From the IMG/VR virus record IMGVR_UViG_3300047178_000060, positions 1 to 37,339 of that record: a stretch of 37,339 nt of DNA; one strand, written 5' to 3'. Below, in pieces: positions 291 to 36,296 of the stretch (the stretch's first letter is position 1; each line of letters begins with the position of its first letter). Below the pieces are notes generated by a model, which saw only the letters and a list, made by a program, of their open reading frames with translations, ran no database searches and was not told the origin of the DNA. The translations under genes and the position numbers were made by a program. This stretch comes from a virus.

Positions 291-689
291 TTAGAGCTTG
301 CGCGCGCTGATCTCGGCCGCCAGCGAGTGCCAGCCATGCTGGATGCCAGCCGGAATGCCGTGGATCAGATGCATCAGCACCTTCGCCTGCTCCTCGATCG
401 CGTGCAGCAGTTCCACCGGAGCGCTGTTCGCGATGAACGCCTCCAGCGCAGCCTTGCGCGATTCCGCAACGTTTACGGCAGCGTGCACATCTTTTTGCAC
501 GTCACCCTCGATATCACCCGCGTCGGCGTCGGCTGCTTTCGCGGCGTTCTCGGCCGCCTCTTTGACATCGGCCGCGATCGTATCGGCGATATTCGCCTCC
601 GGCTCACCGGAGGCTTTCAGCGATTCCACCTCAGCGTCAGCCGCATTCGCCGGCGCGCCAGTGGCGCCCGGTTGGGTATCTGTATCCAT
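291..689 (-). CDS. Hypothetical Ala-rich helical protein upstream of the lysis genes
   Basis: The 132-residue protein is acidic and alanine-rich in its first two thirds (many Ala, Asp and Glu, predicted helical and possibly disordered). It ends in a more hydrophobic helix with a cluster of His residues (residues about 105-125). A very good ribosome binding site (AAGGAGAG) stands just before the ATG, so it is probably well expressed as part of the late operon. It lies between the tail-fibre genes and the holin-like gene. I do not recognise a family; a virion-associated or lysis-timing role would be a guess from position. Confidence 0.6.
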   Translation of the reverse strand: MDTDTQPGATGAPANAADAEVESLKASGEPEANIADTIAADVKEAAENAAKAADADAGDIEGDVQKDVHAAVNVAESRKAALEAFIANSAPVELLHAIEEQAKVLMHLIHGIPAGIQHGWHSLAAEISARKL

Positions 690-952: not shown

Positions 953-2632
953 CTAAAGCCCCGTCACTGAGAAATAATATTCTTGGTTATGCTCCAGCGT
1001 CTGGCGGTCGGCGGTTGATAGGGTGACCGGGAACACCATCGCCTCACTGAGCTGGCCAGTGAGGTAGATCGGTCCATGCACAATGTCCGCGCCCAGCAGC
1101 ACTGGTGCCGTGCCACTTCCGAGCGTGCCAGAGATCGTAGCCGAGGCTGCACTCCGGCCGTTGCTGAACAACGCGATGGTGGTGCTGCTCACCGTGGCAG
1201 TGAGCACGTTCTCATTCGGCGGGACCGCCTCGCTGGAATTATTACCTTCGCCCGTCCCGGCGGTGCTGTAGGCAAACAGATAGGCAGCCAGATGAGCGCC
1301 ATTTGCATAGCACAAGCTGAACACGCGGTTCGCGTCATCTTGCGTAACCATCGCATGCTGAGTTGCGGTGGATGAGGCGTTTGCAACTGCGTTCACGCTG
1401 TAAAGCGCACTCGCACCCACAGCCTGCACGCTACCGGCGGTCTGCAGAGACTGCGCTCCGGAGAATAGAAGCGCGGGCCGCGAGTTAAACGTCTGCAGCA
1501 CGCCCGAAACGACGATTTGTGGCTGGGCGGCGGCGGTGCTCTGCAGTGCGTCGCCAGATGATCGCAACGTACCCTGATTGTATATTTTGGTAACGAAGCC
1601 GTTCCCCGAGCCGACAAAATTGAGCAGGGTCGCGATGTCAAGTTGTCCGCTCGCGAAGCCGATGTCCAGCGCCGTGTTGTCAGACGATCGGCGCACGTTG
1701 ATGCAAGCGCCTGGGTAGCTCTTCGTGAGCTGCCGCAGACCATATGCAACTGTGGGAAGGGCAGCGGACAATGCATCGAGCGGTGTAGACAGGTAGTAGG
1801 TCTGCTGGTTTCCAGACAGCGTTGAGATATCCTGTGATGAGAGGGCAGAACCCCACGCCATCGCCTCAGATATAGTGCCCGAGACGTACTGTCCCCCTAA
1901 TCCCTCACCGATAGAGACCGGGCAGGTGCTAGTCTGTGCTGTTCCTGAGAAGGAGCCTGTTCCGCCCGCGACCCCATTGCTGAGAGCGGTTACCGTCGTT
2001 CCGTCAAAAGTTCCTCCGAACAGACTTGTTGGGTAGAGGGAACTGCCTGCCCCGACAAGCGTAACCCCTGTGTTGACGACGTAGAACGCCGGTTTACTGG
2101 CGATCGCGCCTCCATTGCGCAGACCCCAGACACGGGTGGACCCATCCTGGACAATCAAGTCCTGTTGAGCACTACTGCTGCTGCTAGCCACCGCGAAAGC
2201 GGAGACCGCGCCGGTACTCGCGTTGACGACTTGGACGCTCGCCGATGTCACGAGATACTGAGAACCTGAGAAGAGTACAGCAGGAATGCCGTTCGAGGTC
2301 TGGAGCACCCCGCTCGTAACAATCTGCGGCTGGCTGGCAGCAGTTGCCTGCGAGACATTTCCAGCGCTGCCCAGGGTGCCCTGATTGTACCACGTCGCGA
2401 CATAGCCGCTGCCAGAGCCAACAAACGCTAAAAGCGTAGCAGTATCCAGGCGATTATTGACGAAGCCAATATCCAGCGCCGTGTTGTCGCTGGAGCGACG
2501 CACATTGATCGCTTTACCCGTATACGCCGCCGAGAGCCGCCGCAGCGAGTAAGCCACCGCCGGCCGGACCGACATCACATCTAGGATGCAGGACGTGCGC
2601 CCGAACCCCATCACAGCATCACCCACCATCAT
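953..2632 (-). CDS. Tail adhesin with two tandem arabinofuranosidase-B-like modules
   Basis: The 559-residue protein consists of a short leader (about 25 residues) and two homologous modules of about 265 residues. Each module begins with a YSLR/YGLR segment and contains the identical 16-residue stretch INVRRSSDNTALDIGF, followed by LD-ATLL-FVGSG, YNQGTL and Q-QIV-SGVLQ. This start resembles the N-terminal part of fungal alpha-L-arabinofuranosidase B catalytic domains, and each module ends as a LamG-like jelly roll. Such modules in phage tail proteins are expected to bind or cleave surface sugars. The gene lies three bases after the Mtd-N-type fibre gene in the receptor-binding part of the late operon. 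The internal duplication is clear; glycan specificity and enzyme activity cannot be judged. Confidence 0.75.
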   Translation of the reverse strand: MMVGDAVMGFGRTSCILDVMSVRPAVAYSLRRLSAAYTGKAINVRRSSDNTALDIGFVNNRLDTATLLAFVGSGSGYVATWYNQGTLGSAGNVSQATAASQPQIVTSGVLQTSNGIPAVLFSGSQYLVTSASVQVVNASTGAVSAFAVASSSSSAQQDLIVQDGSTRVWGLRNGGAIASKPAFYVVNTGVTLVGAGSSLYPTSLFGGTFDGTTVTALSNGVAGGTGSFSGTAQTSTCPVSIGEGLGGQYVSGTISEAMAWGSALSSQDISTLSGNQQTYYLSTPLDALSAALPTVAYGLRQLTKSYPGACINVRRSSDNTALDIGFASGQLDIATLLNFVGSGNGFVTKIYNQGTLRSSGDALQSTAAAQPQIVVSGVLQTFNSRPALLFSGAQSLQTAGSVQAVGASALYSVNAVANASSTATQHAMVTQDDANRVFSLCYANGAHLAAYLFAYSTAGTGEGNNSSEAVPPNENVLTATVSSTTIALFSNGRSAASATISGTLGSGTAPVLLGADIVHGPIYLTGQLSEAMVFPVTLSTADRQTLEHNQEYYFSVTGL

Positions 2633-2634
2633 GA

Positions 2635-3783
2635 TCAGGTGATCCCGGTGACGAGGGCCGCGACGAGACGGCCGGACGCCGTGATGTGGTAGGTCAGCAG
2701 ATCCACAGCGCCCGCCGCGGTGCTAAGTGCCGGCGTGCCGCCCGAGCCGAATTTCCAACTCGATCCGAAGCTCGCCGTTCGACCGCCGGTGCTGTCCTGG
2801 GTGATCTCTATCGCACCGGAAGCGCCGGCTGGCAGCGTGGCCGGATTGGCAAAGGTCACGTTGCCGGTGAGCGTGATCGCGGCGTCATTACCCTGCGTAA
2901 AATCGATGGTGACCGTGCTCGCATAAACCAACGGCTGAACAGTCGCGCACTGCGTTTTTGTATAGGTCTGATACGCATTCAGCGCCGCGCCGTTAGCAAT
3001 ATCCGTGATGGAAAGCACAACATTGCCTACCCGCCCCGCAACGCTCAGCACCTCGTTGCTGTTGCCGTCGATCTTATTCCAGGTATTCGTGATCCCATTG
3101 AAAACAGCTTTGTCGCCCACGTTCCACTGGCTGATGCCATCCAGCGTGGTGCTGCCTGCAACCGAAACATTATACACCACGCCTGCCGCGCCGGTGCCTG
3201 AGGCAAACGTCGGCGTATTCGTCGAGGCATTCCACGTCCCGCCGAACGTCAGCGCCTCAGCAAGCCCCAGGTTGGCCACCGCACCCGCTGCCGTGCTCGC
3301 ACCCGTCCCGCCCTGGCTGATCGGCACCGGTGCTGCAAACTGCGCAGCCCCGCCATCACGCGCCAGCAGCAGATAAGCCCCGAGCGCCGCGCGGTAGATC
3401 ACCAGAATCGCCGCCGCCGCCTGCAGCGCACCCGGCACCAGCGCCGCCCCGGCACCGCTCACCAGCGGCAGCGCCCCGGCCGAGTTATAATTAATGGTGC
3501 ATGCCGTCGTGCTGGTGGCTGCAATTTTGATCGACAGGATCATGCCGTCCACTGGCGCGGTCGGCCCGATGTTGCTTGCCACCACAATCGTATTCGCGGC
3601 GCCCGTATCAACAACGTTGACCACCAGCTCAGCCTGTAGCGCATGCGGGTGACCACCTGCCGTCACACCATCATTGAGCACCAGCCGGTTAGTATCCGTC
3701 GTCGCCACAAGCTCGCTCTGCGCGCCGGTAAACGCCGCCACCTGCGCCGCCGTGCCGCGGCGCAGTTGCACCTGATCTGCCAT
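2635..3783 (-). CDS. Tail fibre with Mtd-N-like N-terminus
   Basis: The N-terminus (QLRRGTAAQVAAFT..ELV-TTDTNRLVLNDGVTAGG, residues 5-43) is the characteristic major-tropism-determinant N-terminal motif that attaches phage fibres to the tail tip. A central PISQGGTGASTAAGAVANLGL segment (residues about 153-173) is the repeat typical of tail-fibre shafts. The C-terminal half is Gly/Ala/Thr-rich and probably beta-structured. It follows the tail hub gene by ten bases and is followed by the duplicated adhesin, so two distinct candidate receptor-binding proteins are made in a row. No reverse transcriptase or variable repeat of a diversity-generating system was seen near it. Confidence 0.8.
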   Translation of the reverse strand: MADQVQLRRGTAAQVAAFTGAQSELVATTDTNRLVLNDGVTAGGHPHALQAELVVNVVDTGAANTIVVASNIGPTAPVDGMILSIKIAATSTTACTINYNSAGALPLVSGAGAALVPGALQAAAAILVIYRAALGAYLLLARDGGAAQFAAPVPISQGGTGASTAAGAVANLGLAEALTFGGTWNASTNTPTFASGTGAAGVVYNVSVAGSTTLDGISQWNVGDKAVFNGITNTWNKIDGNSNEVLSVAGRVGNVVLSITDIANGAALNAYQTYTKTQCATVQPLVYASTVTIDFTQGNDAAITLTGNVTFANPATLPAGASGAIEITQDSTGGRTASFGSSWKFGSGGTPALSTAAGAVDLLTYHITASGRLVAALVTGIT

Positions 3784-33124: not shown

Positions 33125-33512
33125 AAAACTCTATACCCTCGCCGACGCGCTCGACCAGCTGCGCGGTGCGATCGGCAAGACCAAGCTTGTCGCCCACCTC
33201 AAAGCTGTGCCACGTTTTGCCGGCGGTCCTACCCACCGCAAAAACGGCGCCAAATACCTGTTTACCGAGGCCGATATCGGCCGGATCGTGGAGAGTTTAG
33301 CATGCCCGGTGCCAGAGGAATCAAGCACGTCAAGCGCCCCGGCAGCGACATGTGGTACGCTCGCGGGTCAGTCCGAGGACAGCCTGTTTTTGAAAGTACG
33401 GGCACAACTGATGAAGAATCAGCGCGCGCCTACTGCGCCAAGCGCGAGGCCGAAATCTGGCAAAGGTCGATCTTTGGCACTCGTGCCACGGTCACCTTCA
33501 CCCACGCCGTAG
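33117..33512 (+). CDS. Excisionase-like HTH protein overlapping the integrase gene
   Basis: A 131-residue protein. Residues 1-60 (MAEKLYTLADALDQLRGAIGKTKLVAHLKAVPRFAGGPTHRKNGAKYLFTEADIGRIVES) fit the winged HTH of AlpA/MerR-type excisionase proteins that occur directly before tyrosine integrases in alphaproteobacteria. The remaining residues are Ser/Pro/Arg-rich and encoded in a second frame over the first 211 bp of the integrase gene. That tail may be disordered; similar long overlaps are common in this gene pair. It probably controls recombination direction. Confidence 0.68.
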   Translation: MAEKLYTLADALDQLRGAIGKTKLVAHLKAVPRFAGGPTHRKNGAKYLFTEADIGRIVESLACPVPEESSTSSAPAATCGTLAGQSEDSLFLKVRAQLMKNQRAPTAPSARPKSGKGRSLALVPRSPSPTP

Positions 33513-34375
33513 CAGCCTACATCGCGTCGAAGAAGCTCTCACCATCGGATAGCAAGCGCGTCGACAACCTGGTGCTGCATTTCAAAGCCACGAAACTGGA
33601 CAAGATCGACCAGGAGGCGCTCGACCGCGCCTATGCGGTGCTGCTTCCGGCCGGCGCCTCGAACGCCAATAAAACACGGACCGTCCTGGCCCCACTCCGC
33701 ACAATCCTGAATTTTGCCGCCCGGCGCAAATGGTGTGATGTCCCGAAATTTGACGTACCGCCCAAATCTCCGCCCCGTGTGGCCTATTTGCTGCCGGAAC
33801 AGGTCACCAGCCTCATCCAGCATGCCGCGCCGCACCTGCGCCCGCTGATCGCGTTCTGCGTCTATACCGGCGCGCGCATGTCCGAGGCGCTCGAGCTGGA
33901 ATGGGATCACATCGACCTCTTCGCAAACCGCGTCACATTCTGGAAAACCAAAGGCAAGCGCGCCCGCCGCTACAATATGCCCCCAGCTGCTGTCGCCACG
34001 CTCAGCGCCATCTCGCACCGCGAGGGCCATGTGTTCCTTGTCCCGGCAATCATCAACAAAAATGGCGAGACCATCATTAAGGCCCATCCTTTCCATAATA
34101 ATGAGCGCCAGGCCGGTGGCCAGATCAAAACCGGCTGGGCCAGCGCATGCAAACGTGCCGGCATCACCGGCTTCCGGCCGCACGATCTGCGCCATACCTG
34201 GGCGAGCTGGCAATACTGCCTCCACAAGGATCTGATGAAGGTCCGCGATGACGGCGGCTGGCAAAGCACAGACCAGGTCGAAATCTACGCCCACCTGATC
34301 CCCGATGCCTACCGCACTCAGATTGACTCCCTGCTGAACGGCGTTCCAGCCGCAGCGACCCGAAAGGAAGCATGA
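33302..34375 (+). CDS. Tyrosine-recombinase integrase
   Basis: A 357-residue phage integrase. The N-terminal arm-binding part (KRPGSDMWYARGSVRGQPVFESTGTTDEESARAYCAKREAE, residues 12-51) is a typical integrase-like start, followed by a core-binding helical domain (about 60-155). Catalytic residues are R192 in TGARMSEALELEW, K217/K219 in WKTKGKRARR, H294 and R297 in RPHDLRHTW, W320 in GGWQS and Y329 in QVEIYAHL. The complete set suggests an active enzyme for integration at a tRNA gene. A GAGAG site precedes the ATG. The palindrome core at 34336-34346 lies in its last codons. Confidence 0.93.
   Translation: MPGARGIKHVKRPGSDMWYARGSVRGQPVFESTGTTDEESARAYCAKREAEIWQRSIFGTRATVTFTHAVAAYIASKKLSPSDSKRVDNLVLHFKATKLDKIDQEALDRAYAVLLPAGASNANKTRTVLAPLRTILNFAARRKWCDVPKFDVPPKSPPRVAYLLPEQVTSLIQHAAPHLRPLIAFCVYTGARMSEALELEWDHIDLFANRVTFWKTKGKRARRYNMPPAAVATLSAISHREGHVFLVPAIINKNGETIIKAHPFHNNERQAGGQIKTGWASACKRAGITGFRPHDLRHTWASWQYCLHKDLMKVRDDGGWQSTDQVEIYAHLIPDAYRTQIDSLLNGVPAAATRKEA
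34336..34346. repeat. GAACG-S-CGTTC core, copy 8 (coding)
   Basis: GAACGGCGTTC in the last codons of the integrase (LLNGVP). Central base is G and one flank base pair extends it imperfectly. Confidence 0.55.
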
Positions 34376-34424: not shown

Positions 34425-34481
34425 GACATGGCTAGGTTTGGCCGCCGAAAAGCCGAGATTTCGCACTCGGCCTGCCATGTC
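34425..34481. other. Nested inverted repeats downstream of the integrase
   Basis: GACATGGC and GCCATGTC enclose a 41-base segment that itself contains GCCGAG and CTCGGC around an 8-base loop. The end reads CCATGTC-C-CCA, so the outer stem looks like a tRNA acceptor with a CCA, but the inner part is far too short for a cloverleaf. It could be an integrase terminator or a decayed tRNA-like remnant. No long T-run follows. Confidence 0.4.
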
Positions 34482-34495
34482 CCCACATTCATTAG

Positions 34496-34508
34496 TGAAC
34501 GCCGTTCA
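34496..34508. repeat. GAACG-S-CGTTC palindrome, copy 9 (intergenic)
   Basis: TGAACGCCGTTCA, 13-bp palindrome with a central C, in the leader of the four-Cys gene, 17 bases before its ATG. This copy is in a promoter-like location. Confidence 0.75.
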
Positions 34509-35061: not shown

Positions 35062-35322
35062 ATGGTACATAAATCAGATGACATCAAGAGTAACCATGCG
35101 ACGGCTACGGCGGTCATATGGATTGTCAGCGAAGCGGAGGCGGCGCGGCGCCTGAATTTAGGTCAACGCACATTGCAGGAGCAACGCCTCCGTGGGACCG
35201 GTCCACGTTTTATCCGACTTGGCTCACGCCGGATCGGCTATGATTTAAGGGATTTGGACGCAGGGATTAGCGCGCGGCGAGTCACGTCGACCAGCGCTAC
35301 CTGTCAGACCGATAGTGCATGA
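35062..35322 (+). CDS. AlpA-like helix-turn-helix protein
   Basis: An 86-residue protein with a helix-turn-helix-type core (WIVSEAEAARRLNLGQRTLQEQRLRGTGPRFIRLGSRRIGYDLRDLDAGI, about residues 20-69) that matches the AlpA/excisionase MerR-like pattern (xxEAAxxLxxxxxTLxxxRxxGxGPxFxxxGxRxxYxxxDLxxxI). The last 16 residues are Ser/Thr-rich. It lies eight bases after the four-Cys gene. Beside a second excisionase-like gene, it may control excision or an early promoter. Confidence 0.75.
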   Translation: MVHKSDDIKSNHATATAVIWIVSEAEAARRLNLGQRTLQEQRLRGTGPRFIRLGSRRIGYDLRDLDAGISARRVTSTSATCQTDSA

Positions 35323-35371
35323 GATTGACCAAATCTGGCCAATCCAGGCCGCATTGTGCTATTATAATTTA

Positions 35372-35483
35372 GCGTCTGCTGTGCCGGAGCGGTTTAACGG
35401 TGAGTTCAGCAAGACATGGGTGTGCCGGCTGAACCGGCGATACACGGGTGCCGTCGGTTCGAGACCCACCAGCAGACGCGCCA
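35372..35483 (+). tRNA. tRNA-Ser-like element with 10-bp acceptor helix (atypical or pseudo-tRNA)
   Basis: GCGTCTGCTG and CAGCAGACGC (35372-35381 / 35470-35479) form a perfect 10-bp acceptor helix, followed by G35480 and an encoded CCA. T8-G9 are in place, then a class-II-type D-arm (CCG, loop GAGCGGTTTAA, CGG). The T-arm has loop TTCGAGA and a stem with one C-C mismatch. The anticodon-plus-variable part is 51 bases, longer than normal, and has two rival folds: GTTCAGC/GCTGAAC, or GCCGG-CTGAA-CCGGC with TGA in the loop (Ser anticodon but C at position 33). The G73 and the D-arm support serine type. It may be a decayed gene or a structured RNA; a canonical tRNA is unlikely. Confidence 0.6.
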
Positions 35484-35492
35484 AACCCCACT

Positions 35493-35510
35493 CGTGCACC
35501 ATCCGTGCAG
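35493..35510 (+). repeat. 18-bp direct repeat, copy A (candidate integrase arm site)
   Basis: CGTGCACCATCCGTGCAG, repeated exactly at 35713-35730 in the same direction, about 220 bp apart. Each copy contains two CGTGCA units. The copies flank the tRNA-Thr half, as P and P' arm-type integrase sites flank an attP core. Confidence 0.72.
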
Positions 35511-35566
35511 ACGTTTTTCTAATCAGGCTTAACATATTGCAATCGCTTTGCGATTTAGGAAGCTTG

Positions 35567-35610
35567 CTCTTCATTACCAATGAAGTGCTCTACCCCTGAG
35601 CTATGACAGC
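35567..35610 (-). pseudogene. 5' half of tRNA-Thr(GGU); candidate attP core
   Basis: On the minus strand the 44 bases read as tRNA-Thr from base 1 to the variable loop: acceptor strand GCTGTCA, T8-A9, D-arm GCTC...GAGC, anticodon stem CTTCA/TGAAG with loop TTGGTAA (anticodon GGT), then AG. The sequence after that does not continue as a tRNA, so it is a 5' half and cannot be charged. The natural reading is the identity block with a host tRNA-Thr gene used for integration, with crossover in the anticodon arm. Upstream (35611-35670) there is a weak promoter-like stretch. Confidence 0.78.
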
Positions 35611-35712: not shown

Positions 35713-35730
35713 CGTGCACCATCCGTGCAG
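35713..35730 (+). repeat. 18-bp direct repeat, copy B (candidate integrase arm site)
   Basis: Exact second copy of CGTGCACCATCCGTGCAG. An inverted half (CTGCACG) lies nearby at about 35699-35705. Confidence 0.72.
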
Positions 35731-35750: not shown

Positions 35751-35765
35751 GTGAACGGCGTTCAC
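35751..35765. repeat. GAACG-S-CGTTC palindrome, copy 10 (after the endolysin gene)
   Basis: GTGAACGGCGTTCAC, a 15-bp palindrome with a central G, 12 bases after the endolysin stop on the minus strand. It lies at the end of the late operon and next to the attachment region. Confidence 0.8.
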
Positions 35766-35777
35766 AACCAGCCCATA

Positions 35778-36296
35778 TCACGAATTCGTGAGCATCGCCC
35801 GTGCCGCATCCTGCGCCCTAAAAGCCCGCTGCATCCAGCCGTTCCCGAACTGCCCATAGCCCGGCAGCTGCTGGTAATAAGCCACATGGCTATACGTCAG
35901 GGTCATGATCAGCCCGGACACATCGCCGCCGCCCAACGCGGCCAGCGTGGCTGGGCCGATGTTGCCGTCCTGCGCCACACCCAGCACGCCCTGGAGTCGC
36001 TGTACCGACCGCTCAGGCCCGGCGTTGACGCCAAAATCAAACACGATCAGGTCGAGGGCGACCGGCAGCTCGTCCCCGCGAATCGGTGCCCAGTAATCCG
36101 GCTGATAGATCGCCTCAGCCTGCGCATCCGTGAGCGCCTGCACGTCCTGTACCGTCGCAGGCCGCCCCAGCACGCGCGAGAGCGTGGCCATAGTGATGCC
36201 ATGGTTCGTGGCACCGCCAGGGTCGCCTTGCACATTGCAAAAGCCCCCCTCCGCCGCGAGCGTGAACCCGCAGCAACGGATGAAATTTCCGAGCAT
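35778..36296 (-). CDS. Endolysin (GH108-type muramidase with peptidoglycan-binding domain)
   Basis: A 172-residue endolysin. The N-terminal GH108 signature is FTLAAEGGFCNVQGDPGGATNHGIT (residues 11-35, catalytic Glu16), followed by RPATVQDVQALTDAQAEAIYQPDYWAP. The C-terminal half has FDFGVNAGPERSVQRLQGVLGVAQDGNIGPATLAAL, the PG-binding-3 pattern. It cleaves the glycan strand of peptidoglycan at lysis. No signal peptide is seen, so release depends on the holin. AAGGATATCAG precedes the ATG. It is the last gene of the late operon, next to the attP region. Confidence 0.92.
   Translation of the reverse strand: MLGNFIRCCGFTLAAEGGFCNVQGDPGGATNHGITMATLSRVLGRPATVQDVQALTDAQAEAIYQPDYWAPIRGDELPVALDLIVFDFGVNAGPERSVQRLQGVLGVAQDGNIGPATLAALGGGDVSGLIMTLTYSHVAYYQQLPGYGQFGNGWMQRAFRAQDAARAMLTNS

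Follow-up and report, generated by a model that had tools for sequence, protein, structure and literature searches.

Allo-tRNAs and other irregular tRNAs, taken here as a review describes them (PMC7609411), are the closest known kind of molecule to the RNA that is the subject of this work. Allo-tRNAs have acceptor and T stems of 8 and 4 or of 9 and 3 base pairs, 12 bp together (Mukai et al. 2017, reviewed in PMC7609411). Those of the UAU group failed in E. coli translation and have been suggested to be part of mobile elements, and allo-tRNAs are found in arrays with other irregular tRNAs (PMC7609411). A second body of work concerns tRNAs carried by phages, which counter tRNA-targeting defence according to the passages of PMC10264068 and PMC11555353 cited here.

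The DNA analysed here is a viral sequence of 37,339 nucleotides (IMG/VR record IMGVR_UViG_3300047178_000060), the whole of which we call the window. Positions 35372-35483 (112 bases, all parts on the plus strand) hold what is, judged by its sequence, a phage RNA gene derived from a serine tRNA; we refer to it as the window copy. A sequence-only reading of the window had proposed a tRNA-Ser-like RNA with a 10-bp acceptor helix and G-CCA, and this description is borne out: the 5' strand GCGUCUGCUG (35372-35381) and the 3' strand CAGCAGACGC (35470-35479) form Watson-Crick pairs at 10 of 10 positions in a helix that covaries in relatives, and a discriminator G and an encoded CCA stand next to it (35480-35483). 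A UG linker (35382-35383) after the 5' strand leads into a class-II, serine-type D-arm of the form GCCG...CGGU (35383-35401; CCGGAGCGGUUUAACGG), which matches that of Acetobacterales tRNA-Ser. With this D-arm, the T-loop UUCGAGA (35458-35464), G73 and CCA, the molecule has the features of a tRNA-Ser, and the parent is recognisable on comparison with Acetobacterales tRNA-Ser(CGA) (UGCCGGAGCGGUCGAACGG...GUGGGUUCGAAUCCCAC). A pattern that joins an overlong 3' strand (more than 7) to the tRNA-Ser D-arm and T-loop finds one match in the window, against a mean of 0.00 in shuffled sequences. The molecule departs from the canonical 7-bp acceptor and 5-bp T-stem on both counts, as the acceptor has 10 bp and the T-arm GUCGG-UUCGAGA-CCCAC (35453-35469) has one C-C mismatch in the middle of its stem. 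The 10/5 acceptor/T arrangement first assigned to the RNA consequently stands for its 10 bp, whereas the T-stem of 5 bp turns out to be 4 pairs and the mismatch; as a 10/5 molecule it was rightly said not to match the 8/4 or 9/3 allo-tRNAs (PMC7609411).

Between the D-arm and the T-arm lies a middle of 52 nt, and the enlarged anticodon region noted from the sequence is indeed present: the D-arm is followed by an insert and then by a hairpin that resembles an anticodon arm, with UGA and C33. The insert (35402-35419) starts with GA after U 35401, continues with the antisense strand GUUCAGC (H5', 35404-35410) and ends with the purine-rich segment AAGACAUGG (35411-35419). The hairpin, P2 (35420-35445), pairs GUGUGCCG (35420-35427) with CGGC-gau-ACAC (35435-35445) around the loop GCUGAAC (35428-35434), which holds the 'anticodon' UGA after C33 and is at the same time the 3' strand of a second stem, H (GUUCAGC/GCUGAAC). 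P2 gives the only 5-bp/7-nt arm of the molecule, and this arm differs from a canonical anticodon arm with U33 in having C33 and in being separated from the D-arm by the insert. Of a long variable arm, which in allo-tRNAs is the serine identity element, a 4-bp version, CGGC/GCCG, is possible as well, but it competes with P2. What had been described as two rival hairpins does exist as two hairpins; the two are better read as one pseudoknot, since H and P2, which share one strand, can coexist as an H-type pseudoknot.

Standard tRNA finders pass over this locus. ARAGORN at default settings called no tRNA at 35372-35483, nor any of the seven members of the set described below (0/7, the window copy and six relatives), and at a lowered threshold it gave only poor and mutually inconsistent models of the window copy. 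In its tmRNA mode there was no tmRNA in the RNA, and an intron in the anticodon loop was considered and rejected (ARAGORN with introns allowed gave a poor tRNA-His model). An Rfam scan at standard thresholds listed no tRNA at 35372-35483, and at E up to 10 it listed the neighbouring tRNA-Thr fragment alone, with no tRNA-Sec match in the region. As such genes escape the standard finders, phage tRNA slots probably hold more unusual tRNA-like RNAs than have been counted.

When 2.9 million viral contigs were scanned with patterns, six relatives came to light in unrelated phages (L033, L041, L042, L044, L046 and L047), most of them with an acceptor helix of 8-11 pairs. The first pattern combined the tRNA-Ser D-arm and T-loop with a 3' strand of more than 7 and left the middle free. 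Its matches were for the most part ordinary tRNA-Ser genes, with L033, on a T7-like phage fragment, as the one clear relative; L033 agrees with the window copy from the D-arm through GGUGA, its acceptor and T stems are 8/5 (GGUGUGCG/CGCACACC), and its middle is enlarged. Patterns based on the D-arm added the other five, in which conservation of the D-arm and GGTGA is not independent evidence because the patterns fixed that stretch; it is partly independent in L033, and the D-arm patterns left the acceptor free. The acceptor has 10 pairs in the window copy, 8 in L033, L044 and L046 and 11 in L041, while L042 pairs at 5 of 9 positions around an internal mismatch over four positions and L047 has no helix. 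Conservation of the helix pairing in relatives, which the sequence-only reading had named as its own test, is thus found in five of the seven sequences, or in six when L042 with its partial pairing is included. CCA is encoded only in the window copy, L033 and L042, and a purine-rich AAGAnACA-type motif recurs in the insert of members.

The set appears to be small. Exact patterns for the window copy or a close form had no match in viral contigs or in 299 Gluconobacter-family genomes, and blastn against phages and plasmids gave nothing useful. A class-wide pattern, whose T-arm clause was dropped as too strict (it missed even the window copy), found no member in 385 alphaproteobacterial genomes, and in 398 Pseudomonadota genomes, with one mismatch allowed, there were three matches, all unrelated, and no member. 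L043 and L045 matched the D-arm pattern and were rejected, having no tRNA-like 3' half (L043 reads as an open frame); matches in Acidovorax phage ACP17 and Rhizobium phage RHEph12 are ordinary tRNAs. A covariance model, R1, scored its five training members at 86-99 bits against up to 49 for normal tRNA-Ser; it gave 34-41 bits to L041 and L047, which are not separated from normal tRNA-Ser, and for this reason no new members were called with it. As far as sequence comparison goes, the window copy does not stand alone as a decayed tRNA: it represents a genuine, though rare, type of phage tRNA look-alike and is one of a few phage tRNA-like RNAs that form an undescribed set, with allo-tRNAs compared by their description in the review (PMC7609411).

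Covariation was scored in five core members (the window copy, L033, L042, L044 and L046), using the inner eight pairs of the acceptor. Of the 40 acceptor cells 36 remain paired, with 15 additional pair types, as against at most 22/40 when the strands are slid by 1-3. Stems H and P2, both picked by eye in each sequence, are paired in all 25 and all 20 cells, with 10 and 6 extra types and with at most 11 and 12 paired cells after sliding. A free search for the best pseudoknot found the same layout in these five members, and its single P values, from 0.007 to 1, combine by Fisher's method over all seven sequences to P = 0.002. A definition built on the window copy fits four of the six relatives and does not fit L041 and L047 (P = 6.7e-6 against dinucleotide shuffles, an optimistic value because the windows of the definition were set after inspecting the sequences). 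P2 and its loop make a 5-bp/7-nt anticodon-like arm in the window copy (UGA, C33), L033 (UCU, U33) and L046 (UAU, C33); the loops have 6 nt in L042 and L044, and U33 occurs solely in L033. An insert strand antisense to the anticodon-like loop, forming an H-type pseudoknot that would hide the anticodon, is well supported but not proven.

In the five members the loop pairs with the upstream strand over 5-7 nt, which would also suit a role on the ribosome. By architectural analogy with the PKI of the dicistrovirus IGR IRES, which imitates the codon:anticodon interaction (as stated in the part of PMC3517527 cited here), the RNA might mimic a codon-paired tRNA on the ribosome and so block or redirect translation. 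The paired length, however, exceeds one codon and the likeness is one of architecture only, and we hold this reading to be improbable.

The energetics of the window copy are less favourable. Folding was computed by nearest-neighbour programs, which do not model pseudoknots. The minimum-energy fold reaches -48.2 against -40.2 for acceptor, D-arm and T-arm, and contains a long hairpin that destroys the T-arm; the folding z-score is only -1.64, and the pair probabilities are 0.00 for the T-arm and near zero for H and P2. A fold with H has -32.5, and adding P2 by hand brings it to an estimated -36 to -38 or so, which is less stable than the minimum-energy fold. The acceptor and T-arm are retained in L033, L041, L044 and L046 (probability 0.86-0.99), and two real tRNA-Ser genes gave a cloverleaf-type fold with acceptor plus T-arm in the same test. 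Since its minimum-energy fold breaks the T-arm and its T-stem is mismatched, the window copy may be drifting. This bears on the idea of a captured tRNA-Ser in decay, in which the window copy would be a pseudogene and its pairing a remnant: the C-C mismatch and the competing fold are consistent with it, L047 looks decayed, and the pseudo-tRNA of B. cereus, as characterised in the cited section of PMC3399842, is a precedent. Decay, however, does not add three perfect acceptor pairs; the D-arm, the insert and covarying helices are common to the relatives, and promoter-like and terminator-like sites flank the window copy. A decaying gene therefore seems to us an unlikely account, and simple decay, one of the options first listed for this RNA, is not supported because the relatives keep the architecture, though the window copy does show signs of drift.

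The promoter-like site, TGGCCA-18-TATTAT at 35336-35365 (plus strand), is a consensus match only, with TG before the -10 element and TATAAT also present at 35363-35368; one such site was found against 0.3 expected in shuffles, and from it transcription would start close to where the acceptor helix begins. The terminator-like hairpin TGCACCATCCGTGCA and the T run behind it (35495-35519, plus strand) overlap an 18-nt repeat, so that the hairpin may bind a protein near attP, whether in addition to a terminator role or in its place. Sites of both kinds were seen by eye beside L046 too. Own transcription signals, to the extent that a consensus match indicates them, and the recurrence of the AAGAnACA-type motif in the insert would also suit a regulatory or processing element, that is, a stable small RNA whose tRNA-like ends would direct its processing by RNase P and at the 3' end and whose insert would be the active part; we consider this very unlikely.

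The surrounding region encodes an integrase (33302-34375), an int-alpA RNA (34425-34497), an AlpA/excisionase-like protein (35062-35322) and an endolysin (35778-36296). The integrase shares 64% identity with its counterpart on an IMG/VR contig and about 47% with those of Gluconobacter prophages, and the Gluconobacter prophage relatives end beside tRNA-Val, about 220 nt past the integrase. The attachment site of this phage is probably a stretch of 44 nt outside the RNA (35567-35610, minus strand), identical to the 5' half of tRNA-Thr(GGT) in two Acetobacterales genomes, which we take as the attP core. With this separate, adjoining fragment as the core, the earlier suggestion that the RNA itself is a second attachment site is rejected. 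What the core matches is not the 3' half of tRNA-Thr(GGT), as is usual, but its 5' half with the anticodon arm, an arrangement which suggests that the phage copy would supply the 5' part of the rebuilt tRNA-Thr gene. An 18-nt direct repeat, CGTGCACCATCCGTGCAG, lies on either side of the core (35493-35510 and 35713-35730) and may represent arm sites of the integrase or excisionase. Two copies of a 14-nt near-palindrome, GTGAACGCCGTTCA, lie 1.2 kb from each other and inverted, one where the int-alpA RNA ends (34495-34508) and the other near the lysis genes (35752-35765); the two sites resemble an operator pair.

The positions of two relatives in other phages are informative about the company that these RNAs keep. 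L033 lies between lysis and capsid genes, where the related Rhizobium phages RHEph21 and RHEph01 have an ordinary tRNA-Asn. L044, which groups with Rhizobium phages RHEph10 and RHph_N1_15, lies in the intergenic slot after glutaredoxin, which is filled by tRNA-Cys in RHEph10 and by other structured sequence in others. Members therefore travel where phage tRNAs travel. The stretch from glutaredoxin to the next gene, as compared in L051-L054, is a variable RNA cargo slot, and in other Rhizobium phages it holds long hairpins with shared CCTTATG/CATAAGG ends. Further irregular sequences were seen nearby: a second, unannotated tRNA-like sequence with an overlong or mismatched acceptor helix stands in tandem with L046 (about 3070-3170, minus strand) and with L044 (about 345-480, minus strand), and in RHEph21 (L062) the tRNA-Asn is followed directly by an unannotated tRNA-like sequence whose anticodon loop is short (about 1383-1455, plus strand). 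On the L033 contig (2820-3353, minus strand) the capsid gene of the T7-like phage appears to be split by a probable intron that carries an HNH-endonuclease-like open frame.

Residence in tRNA slots is also what one would expect of a working but conditional tRNA, a serine-type molecule whose insert would keep the anticodon covered and which would decode a chosen codon only once the insert has been removed or opened. The tRNA-Ser determinants, with G73 and CCA in the window copy and L033, and the 5-bp/7-nt P2 arm of the window copy, L033 and L046 agree with this; the restriction of U33 to L033, the 6-nt loops of L042 and L044, acceptor and T helices of 13-16 bp together and the missing encoded CCA in L041, L044 and L046 speak against it, and its probability seems low.

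The reading that we prefer, and which we put somewhat short of probable, is that of a rare phage RNA derived from tRNA-Ser, with a masked anticodon and unable to decode, that serves as a tRNA mimic or decoy; a mimic was already among the options of the sequence-only reading. A dedicated phage RNA gene would have been made from a serine tRNA. The tRNA-Ser D-arm and T-loop, acceptors lengthened to 8-11 pairs and an insert of about 20 nt before the anticodon-like hairpin are seen directly in the compared sequences; a strand of the insert would pair with the anticodon-like loop, and the resulting pseudoknot would mask the anticodon. The RNA would be made and processed like a tRNA, yet would not decode, and as a mimic or decoy it could tie up the ribosome or a tRNA-handling protein, be it SerRS, another tRNA enzyme or a defence nuclease that targets tRNAs. 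Its job is probably not ordinary translation: the masked loop, the general absence of U33 and acceptor and T helices longer than the canonical 12 pairs argue against ordinary decoding. A decoy or uncuttable substrate that acts against tRNA-targeting defence would be the single most likely option, favoured because members replace tRNAs in phage slots and because phage tRNAs counter such defences in the cited parts of PMC10264068 and PMC11555353. More specifically, we speculate that the built-in antisense of the anticodon loop, together with the 8-11-pair acceptor, mimics a codon-paired tRNA and acts on the ribosome or on tRNA-targeting immunity, a possible but doubtful extension of the decoy reading. 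If the pseudoknot is real, this would be a tRNA with a self-paired anticodon, and it would offer a direct route to asking whether phages carry decoys besides replacement tRNAs.

Each of the known systems resembles these RNAs in some respects. The pseudo-tRNA of B. cereus, tRNA-Other, is likewise a non-decoding tRNA-like gene on a mobile region, but it lies inside a larger transcript, and the section of PMC3399842 cited here describes no family with a lengthened acceptor and a pseudoknot. In PKI of the dicistrovirus IGR IRES, too, a loop resembling an anticodon pairs in cis with a strand resembling a codon; PKI is, however, an element of a eukaryotic viral mRNA with no tRNA-Ser ancestry, and on the account in that part of PMC3517527 the likeness is architectural only. 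Defence-evading phage tRNAs have their counterpart in the ordinary phage tRNAs of the same Rhizobium phage intergenic slots, and differ in being canonical 7/5 molecules with open anticodon loops, as far as the cited portions of PMC10264068 and PMC11555353 describe them. Bacterial tRNA-Sec is serine-type and shares the 8/5 arrangement with L033, L044 and L046, whereas the window copy has neither an Rfam tRNA-Sec match nor a UCA anticodon and carries a standard serine D-arm and the insert. Allo-tRNAs are likewise class-II, serine-type molecules with lengthened acceptor stems, and occur in arrays with irregular tRNAs as L044 and L046 do. They divide their stems 8/4 or 9/3, in contrast to 8/5 to 11/5 in the phage members, and they carry the extra loop between the acceptor and the D-arm, whereas the phage insert lies between the D-arm and the anticodon stem and pairs with the loop.
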